This document shows, one piece after another, positions 1,089-35,450 of a DNA stretch of 64,000 nt (its first letter is position 1; every line of letters begins with the position of its first letter). Under the pieces are notes generated by a model. The model ran no database searches, was not told the origin of the DNA, and was given only the letters and a program-made list of their open reading frames with translations. Origin of the DNA: Gallionella sp. (lineage in GTDB: Bacteria; Pseudomonadota; Gammaproteobacteria; Burkholderiales; Gallionellaceae); the NCBI GenBank assembly GCA_028689145.1, contig JAQTWT010000001.1, forward strand, positions 62,001 to 126,000. The letters run 5' to 3'. The position numbers and the translations under genes are program-made.

Positions 1089-1576
1089 TACGCGCGATGA
1101 CACCGGATGATGTGGATGCGGTGCTGGCCATCGAGCAAGCGGTGCAGGCCTATCCGTGGACGCGCGGAAATTTCAGCGATGCGCTGGCCTGCGGCTATGT
1201 GTGCAGCGTATATGCAGACAACGACGAAATATGCGGCTATGCGGTGATGATGCCGACTGCGGACGATGCAGAATTGCTCAATATCGGCGTAGCGGCAACG
1301 CGGCAACGCAAAGGTACGGGACGCGCCATATTGAATGAGATGCTGGAATATGCGCGCAGCAGGAAAATGCACAAAATATTCCTCGAAGTGCGCCCGTCCA
1401 ATGTCGCCGCCATCGCCCTGTATCGCTGCACCGGTTTCAGCCAGATCGGCATACGGCGCGCTTATTACCGTAATACGAACAGTAACGAAGATGCCGTTAC
1501 AATGGCGTGCGAATTGACTCAACATTCCTCTCTCCCGCGAGCGGGAGAGAGGCTAGGAGAGAGGGCAAATGGATAG
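1085..1576 (+). CDS. rimI: ribosomal protein S18-alanine N-acetyltransferase; C-terminal ~16 aa encoded by an intergenic-type repeat
   Basis: GNAT motifs (NIGVAATRQRKGTGRAILNEML, EVRPSNVAAIALYRCTGF); adjacent to tsaB. Confidence 0.9.
   Translation: MIRAMTPDDVDAVLAIEQAVQAYPWTRGNFSDALACGYVCSVYADNDEICGYAVMMPTADDAELLNIGVAATRQRKGTGRAILNEMLEYARSRKMHKIFLEVRPSNVAAIALYRCTGFSQIGIRRAYYRNTNSNEDAVTMACELTQHSSLPRAGERLGERANG
1527..1565. repeat. CTCTCCCGC-GCGGGAGAG palindromic repeat overlapping the 3' end of rimI
   Basis: cctctctcccgcgagcgggagagaggctaggagagaggg; same family at 32127 and 33871. Confidence 0.8.
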
Positions 1577-30538: not shown

Positions 30539-30670
30539 GGCAGGATTATAGCAAATCATAATCATTACTTATGGTATTTATAAAAACAATTGACTATCGT
30601 TTATATATTGATGCACCTATAGTGGCAACCGTTGCAAGTTAAACCAATCGTTCACACAGGAGATAAAGCT

Positions 30671-32050
30671 ATGGATCAATCGAATCGTTATGCGGATCTG
30701 AGTCTGAAAGAAGAAGACCTGATCAAGGGCGGCAATCACATTCTGGTTGCATACACCATGGAGCCTGCTGCGGGCACCGGTTATCTGGAAGCGGCCGCGC
30801 ATATCGCGGCGGAATCCTCCACCGGCACCAACGTGGAAGTGAGCACCACCGACGATTTCACCAAGGGCGTGGACGCGCTGGTGTACTTCATCGACGAAGC
30901 CAAGGGCATCATGAAGGTGGCTTACCCTAACGATCTGTTTGACCGCAACGTGACCGACGGGCGCGTGATGATCGTGTCATTCCTGACGCTGTGTATCGGC
31001 AACAATCAGGGCATGGGCGACATCGCGAATTTGCAGATGCAGGATTTCTACGTGCCGCCGCGCATGCTGCAACTGTTCGACGGCCCGGCCAAGGATATTT
31101 CCGACCTGTGGCGCATTCTCGGCCGCCCGGTCAAGGACGGCGGCTACATCTCCGGCACCATCATCAAACCGAAACTGGGCCTGCGCCCGGAACCGTTTGC
31201 CAAGGCGGCTTACCAGTTCTGGCTGGGCGGCGACTTCATCAAGAACGACGAGCCGCAAGGCAACCAGGTGTTCTGCCCGATCAAGAAAGTACTGCCGCTG
31301 GTTTACGATTCGCTCAAGCGCGCACAGGACGAAACCGGCCAGGCCAAATTGTTCTCGATGAACATCACCGCCGACGACCATTATGAAATGTGCGCCCGCG
31401 CCGATTTCGCGCTGGAAACCTTCGGCCCGGATGCGGACAAGGTGGCGTTCCTGGTGGACGGTTATGTCGGCGGCCCCGGCATGATTACCACGGCGCGCCG
31501 TCAATACCCGAGCCAGTACCTGCACTTCCACCGTGCCGGCCACGGTGCGGTGACTTCGCCTTCTTCCAAGCGGGGCTACACCGCGTTCGTGCTGGCCAAG
31601 ATGTCGCGTCTGCAGGGTGCTTCCGGCATCCACGTCGGCACCATGGGCTACGGCAAGATGGAAGGCGGCAAGGACGACCGCATCATCGCTTACATGATCG
31701 AACGCGATAGCTGCATGGGCCCGTTCTACCATCAGGAATGGTACGGCATGAAGCCGACCACCCCGATCATTTCCGGCGGCATGAATGCGCTGCGTCTGCC
31801 CGGCTTCTTCGAGAACCTCGGCCACGGCAACGTGATCAACACCGCAGGCGGCGGCTCTTACGGCCATATCGACTCCCCGGCTGCAGGCGCGATCTCGCTG
31901 CGTCAGGCTTACGATTGCTGGAAGTCCGGTTCCGATCCGATCCAGTACGCCAAGGAACACAAGGAATTTGCGCGCGCCTTCGAATCCTTCCCGAAAGATG
32001 CGGACAAGATATTCCCGGGCTGGCGCGAAAAGTTGGGCGTACACAAGTAA
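30671..32050 (+). CDS. cbbM: ribulose-1,5-bisphosphate carboxylase/oxygenase, form II
   Basis: [70 protein letters not shown]. Confidence 0.98.
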
Positions 32051-32104: not shown

Positions 32105-32126
32105 GTTCCAAAATCAAAACCTGATT

Positions 32127-32165
32127 CCCCTCGCCCGCTTGCGGGAGAGGGGCTAGGGGAGAGGG
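32127..32165. repeat. CTCGCCCGCTTGCGGGAGAGGGGCTAGGGGAGAGGG repeat upstream of cbbQ
   Basis: Same family as 1527-1565 and 33871-33987. Confidence 0.8.
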
Positions 32166-32171
32166 TTAGCC

Positions 32172-32975
32172 ATGACAGACAAAGACCAGTATAAGGTTCA
32201 TCAGCAGCCGTTCTACCAAGCGCAGGGCGACGAGGTCGCGCTGTATGAGGCGGCCTACACGGCTCGTCTGCCGGTGATGATCAAAGGCCCGACCGGCTGC
32301 GGCAAATCGCGCTTCATCGAATACATGGCGTGGAAACTGGACAAGCCGCTGATCACGGTGGCGTGCAACGAGGACATGACCGCCAGCGATCTGGTCGGGC
32401 GCTATCTGCTCGATGCCAACGGCACGCGCTGGCTGGACGGCCCACTGACTACCGCCGCGCGCATCGGCGCGATCTGCTATCTCGACGAAATCGTCGAGGC
32501 GCGTCAGGACACCACAGTGGTGATCCATCCGCTGACCGACCACCGGCGCACCTTGCCGCTGGACAAGAAGGGCGAACTGCTGGCGGCGCATCCCGATTTT
32601 CAGCTGGTGATTTCCTACAACCCCGGCTATCAAAGCCTGATGAAGGATTTGAAGCAGTCCACCAAACAGCGCTTCACCGCGTTCGATTTCGACTATCCGG
32701 CGGCCGATGTCGAAACAGAAATTCTGTGCAAGGAAACCGGCATGGACCAGGAGCTGTCGGCCAAACTGGTGAAGATCGGCGCGACGGCGCGCAACCTGAA
32801 AGGACACGGTCTGGACGAGGGCATCTCGACGCGCCTGCTGGTGTATGCGGCGACGCTGATCAAGGGCGGCGTTGCGCCGCGCGCGGCGTGCCGCATGGCG
32901 CTGGTGCGACCGATCACCGACGATGCGGACATCCGCGACACGCTGGATCACGCGATCGACGCGGTATTTGTGTAG
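32172..32975 (+). CDS. cbbQ: RuBisCO activation AAA+ ATPase CbbQ
   Basis: MIKGPTGCGKSRFIEYMAWKL Walker A; GAICYLDEIVEARQDTTVVIHPLTDHRRTLPL; between cbbM and cbbO. Confidence 0.95.
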   Translation: MTDKDQYKVHQQPFYQAQGDEVALYEAAYTARLPVMIKGPTGCGKSRFIEYMAWKLDKPLITVACNEDMTASDLVGRYLLDANGTRWLDGPLTTAARIGAICYLDEIVEARQDTTVVIHPLTDHRRTLPLDKKGELLAAHPDFQLVISYNPGYQSLMKDLKQSTKQRFTAFDFDYPAADVETEILCKETGMDQELSAKLVKIGATARNLKGHGLDEGISTRLLVYAATLIKGGVAPRAACRMALVRPITDDADIRDTLDHAIDAVFV

Positions 32976-33039
32976 GTGCGGATTTATCCGCACTGCGCTA
33001 TTCAGGCAACAATAATTGTGCGAATGAATTCGCACCTAC
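32972..33039. repeat. GTAG...CTAC element (gtaggtgcggatttatccgcac / gtgcgaatgaattcgcacctac)
   Basis: Two hairpin arms bounded by GTAG and CTAC; GTAG overlaps the cbbQ stop. Confidence 0.85.
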
Positions 33040-33074
33040 GCAGGTCGTAACCCACACTTTTTGTGCTGAAAATA

Positions 33075-35450
33075 ATGGAAACTGCAACCCTGCCCACCGA
33101 ACTGGCAACCTACTGGAAGCAGCTCGACTGCGGGTTCCCGCGCGTCGAGACGGTGTTTGCCGATTGCCTGCGCGAAGCATTGGCGACACTGTCGCGGCAG
33201 GGCGTGGATGACTATATCGAGCAGGCGCGTTTTCTCGGCAAGATGGGACGCGGAGCGGAACCGATTCTGATCTTTCTCGAAGAGTGGCCTGCCGTCGCAA
33301 AAATTCTGGGCGAAACCGCGCTGCCGGACATCATGGCGGCGATCCGGCGCATGTGGAAATCGCCCAACGGCAAGGCGATCACGCCGTTCCTGCAATCGCT
33401 ACCAACCACTGCAAGACGCTTGCATTCGGCAGAACAGTTGCGCGTTTATATCGACATCGTGCTGGATATGATGGAGCGCACCACCGGCTCGGTCCACGGC
33501 ATTCATCAGACCTTTCCCAGTCCGGGGCTGCCGGAAATATTCAAACAGGTTTCTGTGCTGCTCGGCCAACTTTCTCTGGCGGGACTGAAGAACTGGGTGG
33601 ATTACGGGGTGCGCCATTACGACGACCATCCCGACCGGCAGATCGACTATTTCAGCCTGCAATCGGCGGACAGCCGCGCGGTGTTGCAGCGCGAGCGGCA
33701 CGGCACGCTGCTGGTGGACAACGAGCGCAAGCTGGATATGTATCTGCGCGGGCTGTGGCAGGACGAGGACCATCTGATCCCTTATTCCGGCGCATTCGAT
33801 GAATTGCGCCAGCCGGTTCCGTATTACGACCAGTTGGGTATTCGTTTGCCGGATGCGTATGACGACTTCATCTCCCCTCTCCCGCTTGCGGGAGAGGGGC
33901 TGGGGGGAGAGGGTGCGCAAGGAAGCCCTCTCTCCAACTCTCTCCCGTTGAACGGGAGAGAGAGCAATCGTCTCCCTGCGGGAGAGATTATTATTTCTGG
34001 ATTGGACCGCTACCGCGCCGCGCTGGCGCATATCGCCGCGCATCGCCGCTGGACCACTGCGATTTTTGCCGACAATTTCAGCCCGTTCCAGCGCATGGCG
34101 GTGGAGTTCATCGAGGACAGCCGCGTGGAATATCTGGCGATGCGCGAGTATCCCGGCCTGCGACGCATCTTCATGACGCTGCATCCGGTCCCCGCCGAAG
34201 ACGCTTGCGATCCTGAGTTGGAATCCGGCGTGCGTCATCGTCTGGCAATGCTGTCGCGCGCGCTGCTTGATCCGGCGCATCCCTACCGAAATCCACACAT
34301 CATCGGGTGCGCGCAACGCTTCCATGAACTGATGCGACAAGGAGATGCCGGCACGCAAGAGATGGCCGATTTGGCGGTTTCGTTCGTCGCCAGAACTCGC
34401 CTGCAGAGTGACAACCTCGCCAAGATGCATTTCAAAGATACGGTGGTGGATTACCGCGACGACAACCGCCAGATGTGGAAATTCATCGAGCAGGGCGACG
34501 AGGAAGAAGCGTTCGACGAACCGCGCAAGATCGAACCGGGCGAGGAACTCAAAGGTTTGCCGCCGCGCCATTACCACGAGTGGGATTACCACAGCCAGAA
34601 CTACCGCCCGGACTGGGTGAGCGTGTACGAGGCGTTGCATCCGCAGGGCAATGCCGCGGACATCGACAGGCTGCTGGACAAGCATGCCGCGCTGGCCAAA
34701 CGGCTGAAGAAGCTGCTCGACCTGATCAAGCCGCAGGACAAGGTGCGTATCCGCTATCAGGAAGACGGCAGCGAGCTGGATCTGGATGTCGCGCTGCGTT
34801 CGCTGATCGACTACAAGAGCGGCGCGACACCCGATCCGCGCATCAACATGAGCCACCGAACCAGCGGGCGCAGCATCGCGGTGATGCTGTTGCTGGATTT
34901 GTCGGAATCGCTCAACGAAAAAGCGGCGGGCTGCGACCAGACCATTCTTGAACTGAGCCGGGAAGCGGTATCGCTGCTGGGCTGGGCAGTGGAAAAACTC
35001 GGCGACCCGTTCGCCATCGCCGGATTTCATTCCAACACCCGCCACGATGTGCGCTACCTGCATATCAAGGGTTACAGCGAGCCTTGGGACGACCAAGTCA
35101 AGGGTCGGCTGGCGGCAATACAGGCCGGTTATTCCACACGCATGGGCGCGGCGATGCGCCATGCCGCACATTATCTGGAGCAGCAACAAGCCGATAAGAA
35201 ACTGATGCTAATTCTCACCGACGGCGAACCGTCGGATGTGGACAGCAAGGACGGGCGATTGCTGATTGCGGATGCGCGGCAGGCAGTGATGGAACTGGAC
35301 CGGCAGGGCATTTACACCTATTGCATCAACCTTGATTCCAAGGCGGATGAATATGTCGCGGATATTTTCGGCAAGCAATACACCATCATCGACCGGGTGG
35401 AGCAGTTACCGGAAAAATTGCCGCAACTTTTTATTTCACTCACCAAATAA
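33075..35450 (+). CDS. cbbO: RuBisCO activation protein CbbO (VWA domain) with an in-frame repeat insertion
   Basis: C-terminal VWA with DLSES MIDAS; follows cbbQ; insert SPLPLAGEGLGGEGAQGSPLSNSLPLNGRESNRLPAGE. Confidence 0.94.
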   Translation: METATLPTELATYWKQLDCGFPRVETVFADCLREALATLSRQGVDDYIEQARFLGKMGRGAEPILIFLEEWPAVAKILGETALPDIMAAIRRMWKSPNGKAITPFLQSLPTTARRLHSAEQLRVYIDIVLDMMERTTGSVHGIHQTFPSPGLPEIFKQVSVLLGQLSLAGLKNWVDYGVRHYDDHPDRQIDYFSLQSADSRAVLQRERHGTLLVDNERKLDMYLRGLWQDEDHLIPYSGAFDELRQPVPYYDQLGIRLPDAYDDFISPLPLAGEGLGGEGAQGSPLSNSLPLNGRESNRLPAGEIIISGLDRYRAALAHIAAHRRWTTAIFADNFSPFQRMAVEFIEDSRVEYLAMREYPGLRRIFMTLHPVPAEDACDPELESGVRHRLAMLSRALLDPAHPYRNPHIIGCAQRFHELMRQGDAGTQEMADLAVSFVARTRLQSDNLAKMHFKDTVVDYRDDNRQMWKFIEQGDEEEAFDEPRKIEPGEELKGLPPRHYHEWDYHSQNYRPDWVSVYEALHPQGNAADIDRLLDKHAALAKRLKKLLDLIKPQDKVRIRYQEDGSELDLDVALRSLIDYKSGATPDPRINMSHRTSGRSIAVMLLLDLSESLNEKAAGCDQTILELSREAVSLLGWAVEKLGDPFAIAGFHSNTRHDVRYLHIKGYSEPWDDQVKGRLAAIQAGYSTRMGAAMRHAAHYLEQQQADKKLMLILTDGEPSDVDSKDGRLLIADARQAVMELDRQGIYTYCINLDSKADEYVADIFGKQYTIIDRVEQLPEKLPQLFISLTK
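33871..33987. repeat. CTCTCCCGC/GCGGGAGAG-type repeat inserted in frame in cbbO
   Basis: Three successive palindromic arms: ctcccgcttgcgggag, ctctcccgttgaacgggagag, tctccctgcgggaga. Confidence 0.9.

Follow-up and report, generated by a model that had tools for sequence, protein, structure and literature searches.

Palindromic repeats lie in frame within cbbO and other housekeeping genes of Gallionellaceae

The cbbO gene of the window (the whole stretch of 64,000 nucleotides that was analyzed) carries a block of hairpin-forming sequence within its reading frame. We consider it very probable (roughly 85%) that the palindromes in this block are proliferating, non-autonomous repeats tolerated in a permissive loop of CbbO, with successive elements replacing earlier ones and alleles being exchanged in addition. 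The repeat, here called family A, is present in many copies in the genome. Relatives carry unrelated families at the orthologous point, in frame and stop-free wherever the site was resolved, and family A also lies within MutS, PolA, and other housekeeping proteins. The proper level of the finding is the genome and the family, not cbbO.

RESULTS

A hairpin-rich segment extends the cbbO reading frame

The window carries a cbbM-type Rubisco gene followed by cbbQ and then cbbO. The cbbO product has a C-terminal VWA domain (residues 607-763, E = 2.3e-8), and this domain together with the adjoining cbbQ and Rubisco gene gives it the features of a CbbQO-type Rubisco activase subunit. The elements of the locus are listed below, with the strand given where one was assigned.

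30632..32050, forward strand, gene for the cbbM-type Rubisco large subunit
32128..32165, intergenic family A copy between cbbM and cbbQ
32172..32975, forward strand, cbbQ, encoding the MoxR AAA+ partner of CbbO
33063..35450, forward strand, cbbO open reading frame, 795 amino acids (GTG start at 33063, in-frame ATG at 33075, stop at 35450), with full-length Gallionellaceae relatives at 61-85% identity
33867..33998, forward strand, CbbO extension, family A palindromes with the predicted translation FISPLPLAGEGLGGEGAQGSPLSNSLPLNGRESNRLPAGEIIIS (net +117 nt, 39 codons, compared with insert-less relatives)
33874..33899, hairpin 1 of the insert, CCCCTCTCCCGC-TT-GCGGGAGAGGGG, the family A core (inverted repeat and RNA fold)
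33904..33936, second helix of the insert, GGGGGGAGAGGG with CCCTCTCTCC (RNA fold)
33938..33962, hairpin of the insert, CTCTCTCCCGTT-G-AACGGGAGAGAG (inverted repeat and RNA fold)
33971..33985, short hairpin at the 3' end of the insert, TCTCCC-TGC-GGGAGA (sequence and RNA fold)

In the cbbO of the window, 138 nt separate the RLPDxY and G(I/L)DRYR motifs. Relatives without the insert have 21-24 nt there, which leaves a surplus of 117 nt in the window, and the frame stays open without a stop through all 39 additional codons. A preliminary description had proposed such an in-frame block of CTCTCCC/GGGAGAG hairpins, with the identical length of 117 bp, a frame that runs on to the VWA domain, and a copy of the same repeat between genes upstream of cbbQ; all three points were borne out. 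It had also counted three palindromic arms. Their palindromy was reproduced but their number was not, as four helices were obtained in the fold, three of them simple hairpins. Two of the helices correspond to inverted repeats of 12 bp each with 100% complementarity (33874-33885/33888-33899 and 33938-33949/33951-33962), and the remaining two come from the fold. The predicted RNA fold of the insert has an energy of -76.5 kcal/mol (z = -6.3), and none of 200 shuffled sequences folded equally well.

Hairpins of this stability could reflect a role at the RNA level, such as a processing site, an attenuator, or a site of ribosome bypass or excision, which would leave the segment outside the protein. 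Palindromy is also kept in the insert of one relative (L017), in which the tip of the stem equivalent to 33938..33962 reads CACATTGTG instead and both sides of the stem are altered together. However, palindromy can also be preserved by correction through template switching or by exchange with copies elsewhere in the genome, and one of these may account for this two-sided change. In addition, a skipped segment would need neither a length divisible by three nor a stop-free frame, whereas both are seen in all resolved relatives, and no Rfam family matches the insert. We regard an RNA-level role as very unlikely. The only Rfam match obtained, an antizyme frameshift element at 32122-32168, scored below the gathering score, lies on the intergenic family A copy, and was taken as chance.

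The inserted residues are predicted to be mostly Gly, Pro, Ser, and Leu, and the earlier characterization of the insert as a low-complexity linker is fair as a description. In the AlphaFold2 model of the whole CbbO, the insert had a pLDDT of about 30, which suggests disorder. Modeling had also been proposed for locating the insert; residues 138-304 around it were equally low in confidence throughout, and its position therefore cannot be placed from the model of the window protein. The model of an insert-less relative (residues 1-402, mean pLDDT 77) did place the site, at a short turn just before helix 271-288 and adjoining the low-confidence stretch 211-263. Solved NorD structures were also considered as a guide but align with the VWA half only, and are uninformative on the insert site.

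Family A is a short, stop-poor repeat found throughout the genome

The heptamer CTCTCCC occurs 11 times in the window against 4 expected, a count reached in none of 100 shuffles. At ≤3 mismatches, the palindrome CCCTCTCCCGC-NN-GCGGGAGAGGG has 72 copies in its own 2.74 Mb genome, compared with 1 for a reversed-pattern control. Alignment of 53 copies defined a unit of about 38 nt, in which this palindrome is followed by TGGGG(A/T)GAGGG. A typical copy is open in five of the six frames; by our own reading, units with the tail GGGAGAGGG rather than GGGTGAGGG are open in all six. Family A is common in nearly all of the 26 genomes compared (4-153 copies; control, about 0). One further intergenic copy in the window was recorded as follows.

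1528..1551, intergenic family A copy with 2 mismatches and no long open reading frame across it, possibly the one that the preliminary description placed at the rimI end

No transposase tied to family A was found in the genome. An origin from a RAYT was considered and found no support, as the four genomic Y1_Tnp loci have no family A palindrome nearby. The hairpin ends of the 53 aligned copies bear neither a GTAG nor a CGTC tag, and a clean target-site duplication was not seen where filled and empty sites were compared. A subset of family A copies (L170, L171, L174, L177, L179, L180, L181, and L189) lies inside a longer element whose flanks are conserved and similar (..CTCGCGCAGCGATTCGTTTGCC-A-TTGGGGAGAGGGAAACGGGCATGGCGAG..); this element may be a MITE that measures about 85 bp and has A in the middle. 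This longer element is in frame in CysH (L179) and in an NADH dehydrogenase-like protein (L174).

Family A lies within many unrelated proteins

From single stretches around the copies, 54 distinct palindromes of the 72 were placed in the genome. Twenty-one of the 54 are internal to recognized proteins, 18 in number (CbbO and 17 others), and the rest are intergenic or in unverified open reading frames. The hosts are an RlmN-like methyltransferase, CbbO, Mfd, TilS, a YejF-like ABC protein (two palindromes), CobB, CobQ, TrhP, EarP, DNA polymerase I (two), MutS, FolC (two), an NADH dehydrogenase-like subunit, CysH, GlnE, a FadD-like ligase, RlmI, and RibD. Four more palindromes in two adhesin-like open reading frames are listed apart from the 21. 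Mpl, a 6-phosphogluconolactonase-like open reading frame, and a permease, in which the repeat lies at or before the N-terminal part, were left out of the internal count because their true start may be downstream of the repeat.

The hosts MutS and PolA were also compared across genomes. Inserts of varied sequence occupy one place in MutS in 14 of 25 genomes, with none in the other 11. For PolA, all 24 informative genomes show a variable linker, and that of the window's own genome contains its two family A palindromes. This linker, beside the 5'-3' exonuclease domain, is a gathering point for different repeats in nearly all Gallionellaceae genomes that were compared (the L165 open reading frame and L194-L219).

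Unrelated repeats occupy the same CbbO loop in relatives

The closest named sequences to the window belong to metagenome-assembled genomes of Gallionella and Candidatus Ferrigenium (Gallionellaceae). CbbO was surveyed in 158 Gallionellaceae genomes, mostly metagenome-assembled, of which 109 gave a strong match, together with named contigs. The site was resolved in 110 distinct CbbO sequences; only two NorD-like paralogues (L044 and L045) were unresolved, and every CbbO locus fetched for Gallionellaceae was resolved in one open frame. The short loop of 21-24 nt is the majority form (78 of 110) and includes Zetaproteobacteria and Methylophaga-like sequences. An insert conserved in distant taxa without repeat character, which the preliminary description had named as the contrary case, was not found in the alignment of homologues. 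Family A occupies the site in 14 sequences, with the 138-nt form in the window and four distinct relatives of the genus and other lengths in the rest, other genera included. The implied specificity to the strain or to cbbO does not hold in view of these four relatives and the 17 other proteins with A repeats.

Three sequences carry family B (palindrome GTAGGGTGCAC, GTAGGGTGCACTCCGTGCACC..GGTGCACGGAGTGCACCCTAC) at the site, and eight, two of them degenerate, carry family C (palindrome GTTCGACAGGCTCA, ACCGTTCGCCCTGAGCCTGTCGAAGG..GGTTCGACAGGCTCACCACGAACGG), among them Candidatus Ferrigenium bremense and straubiae. A composite, nested element, D, was found once (L022), and six sequences have short extensions with no recognized repeat. 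The 18 distinct extended lengths range from 36 to 213 nt; all are multiples of three and none contains a stop. By our own arithmetic, the chance of 18 of 18 multiples of three would be about 3e-9 if the lengths were independent, a figure that is overstated given that the alleles are related.

Metagenome-assembled genomes are exposed to assembly and binning artefacts, and repeats are known to mislead assembly. However, assemblies that were made independently in different projects share homologous inserts with ordinary divergence (L017/L051, L018, L023, and L050, and the C type in Candidatus Ferrigenium bremense and straubiae), always with the frame kept, and we consider an artefact extremely improbable. 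Two cbbO genes occur in one genome bin (G027; L023 and L120), of which only one has the 138-nt A insert; either the second copy is real or the bin is mixed.

Elements replace one another, and alleles are probably exchanged

A tree of CbbO was built from 110 rows with the insert excluded and a truncated sequence (L107) left out. On this quick tree, with 20 weakly supported forks, a minimum of 26 changes was obtained for six insert states and 15 for repeat versus no repeat. The flanks of an insert-less allele (L024) and an allele with a C insert (L054) are 94-95% identical. The B insert of L020 terminates in GCTGCGGGAGAAATCGTTATATCC, the sequence with which A inserts finish at their 3' end, and the A insert of L140 contains a stretch of 63 nt that is absent from L093; elements therefore replace each other or become nested. 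Of the 26 genomes compared, the three that carry B in CbbO also have the most matches to B (17, 44, and 41; 0-10 in the others), and family C is widespread among the compared genomes. An element of roughly 60 nt, GGGATAACCAGCGACTTGG..CTAGTCGAATGGCTAGTAGTTCCATC, is nested in family A inserts of CbbO (L022 and L140). The peptide of D and of this element (ITSDLA..SSSIRG) also lies inside A-like peptides of MutS (L231) and PolA (L210, L214, and L216).

The 3' flank of A alleles, ATATCTGG(A/G)TTGGACC, is common to different genera, suggesting that allele exchange by recombination also contributes. Taken further, new insertions could have been few, with a single ancient insertion carried from species to species, and diversified, chiefly through homologous recombination of cbbO. 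A alleles of other genera (L093, L094, and L140) match those of the window's genus in layout, frame, and 3' flank, and insert-less sister alleles are present, as this would predict. By contrast, B, C, and D are unrelated to A and do not descend from it by point change, and B is found in B-rich genomes. As a general account we find a single insertion possible but doubtful; it is probably true for part of the distribution of A and complements repeated insertion and replacement of proliferating repeats without displacing them.

The mean dN/dS was about 0.39 for the insert and about 0.12-0.13 for the flanks (our averages of pairwise values). Hairpin 1 is read as PLPLAGEG in CbbO of the window versus PSPASGRG in relatives, through a compensated -1/+1 pair. 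By these sequence comparisons, the insert residues are weakly constrained while the frame is kept.

A longer loop could nevertheless be adaptive, for example in coupling to the CbbQ ring or in specificity for form II Rubisco, with the palindromes serving as raw material. Repeated extension at one point (a minimum of 18 changes when non-repeat extensions are included) and the occurrence of extensions without repeats (L034, L070, L071, and L122) are compatible with selection for length. However, the short loop persists in 78 of 110 sequences, very close relatives among them; the extensions, which vary from 36 to 213 nt, have no peptide in common; and dN/dS is higher in the insert than in the flanks by a factor of about three. 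MutS and PolA are likewise patterned, which indicates permissiveness rather than a benefit specific to Rubisco. We judge a selected linker improbable, and an effect on Rubisco activation is an unlikely cause of the insert.

DISCUSSION

On the reading that we prefer, that of proliferating repeats tolerated in a permissive loop, the cbbO insert would be a composite of family A that landed in frame in a length-tolerant loop of CbbO and is translated as 39 extra residues. The protein would be left intact by an insertion of a multiple of three because family A is nearly stop-free in all six frames. Selection would then retain insertions in permissive loops only, later families B, C, and D would insert into or replace earlier elements at the same point, and insert-bearing and insert-less alleles would probably be swapped between species by recombination. 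We infer from sequence that the insert is actually translated and is neutral for activase function, and we infer likewise the mode of family A movement and the share of new insertion versus allele exchange.

The nearest known system is that of the Rickettsia palindromic elements (RPE; Ogata et al. 2000, 2002). As far as the accounts in PMC10969869 and PMC2996958 extend, these are in-frame palindromes in many unrelated housekeeping genes, and nearly half of the RPE copies in R. conorii are intragenic, typically in non-structured segments. Like RPE and the protein-coding palindromes of Wolbachia, family A is read in frame in recognized proteins, CbbO and 17 others, and like RPE it has copies within a single genome both inside genes that are unrelated to each other and in intergenic positions. 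It is set apart from RPE by description: RPE are about 150 bp, whereas the family A unit is about 38 nt with another sequence, although the composite cbbO insert reaches 117 nt.

GTAG- and CGTC-tagged REPs inside open reading frames are palindromes of 20-40 nt, intragenic in known proteins, with DNA repair genes among their hosts (PMC3733652). DNA polymerase I is a host both there and in Gallionellaceae; family A, however, has neither tag and no RAYT neighbor, and family B starts with GTAG, but with the GTAG paired in the stem. The same-site pattern has its closest precedent in recB, where two Xanthomonas species have different REPs at about the same position (PMC3733652). The same study speculates that repeats in repair genes create mutators; simple tolerance would be more economical, because MutS and PolA repeats are so widespread in Gallionellaceae. 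Family A also resembles the enterobacterial intragenic repeat units RU-1, RU-2, and RU-3 (PMC2759123) and other MITEs in being short, non-autonomous, open-framed, and within host genes. The RU units, likewise fused to host genes, are 103-168 bp; family A is shorter, and a target-site duplication was not seen at the sites compared. A search of the accessible literature for the family A sequence and for Gallionella with REP returned nothing relevant.

By analogy, the mode of action would be that of RPE and of REPs inside open reading frames, and the RPE-type mode is already known. Gallionellaceae also differ from the RPE system in their free-living hosts, which are iron oxidizers, and in the succession of several unrelated families in the same loop. 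Earlier descriptions treated protein-coding palindromes as peculiar to Rickettsia and few other bacteria; a review of 2024 goes no further than to call a similar process elsewhere conceivable (PMC10969869). The evidence leans, by a modest degree, toward an RPE-like process at the scale of Rickettsia in these free-living bacteria, in which stop-poor family A and unrelated families repeatedly enter, overwrite, and nest in loops of CbbO, MutS, and PolA, making selfish repeats a standing source of new loop sequence. With empty, filled, and overwritten alleles of one loop available for several essential proteins, the well-sampled Gallionellaceae allow direct tests of how repeat-derived peptides originate, how they are tolerated, and what becomes of them. 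Such inserts should not be taken as functional adaptations of Rubisco activase, nor repeat-derived peptides named as lineage-specific domains.

A second palindromic repeat, ended by GTAG (GTAGGTGCGAATTNATTCGCAC), was observed between cbbQ and cbbO at 32969-33042. Its GTAG end supplies the TAG stop codon of cbbQ (32973-32975), and on each strand of the genome it has 60-64 matches, against 0 for the control. A RAYT-like Y1_Tnp open reading frame (L047, G000:C2:55019-55291) has the GTAG repeat on both sides (C2:54841-54898 and C2:55391-55448), an arrangement that resembles a REPtron serving the GTAG family rather than family A.
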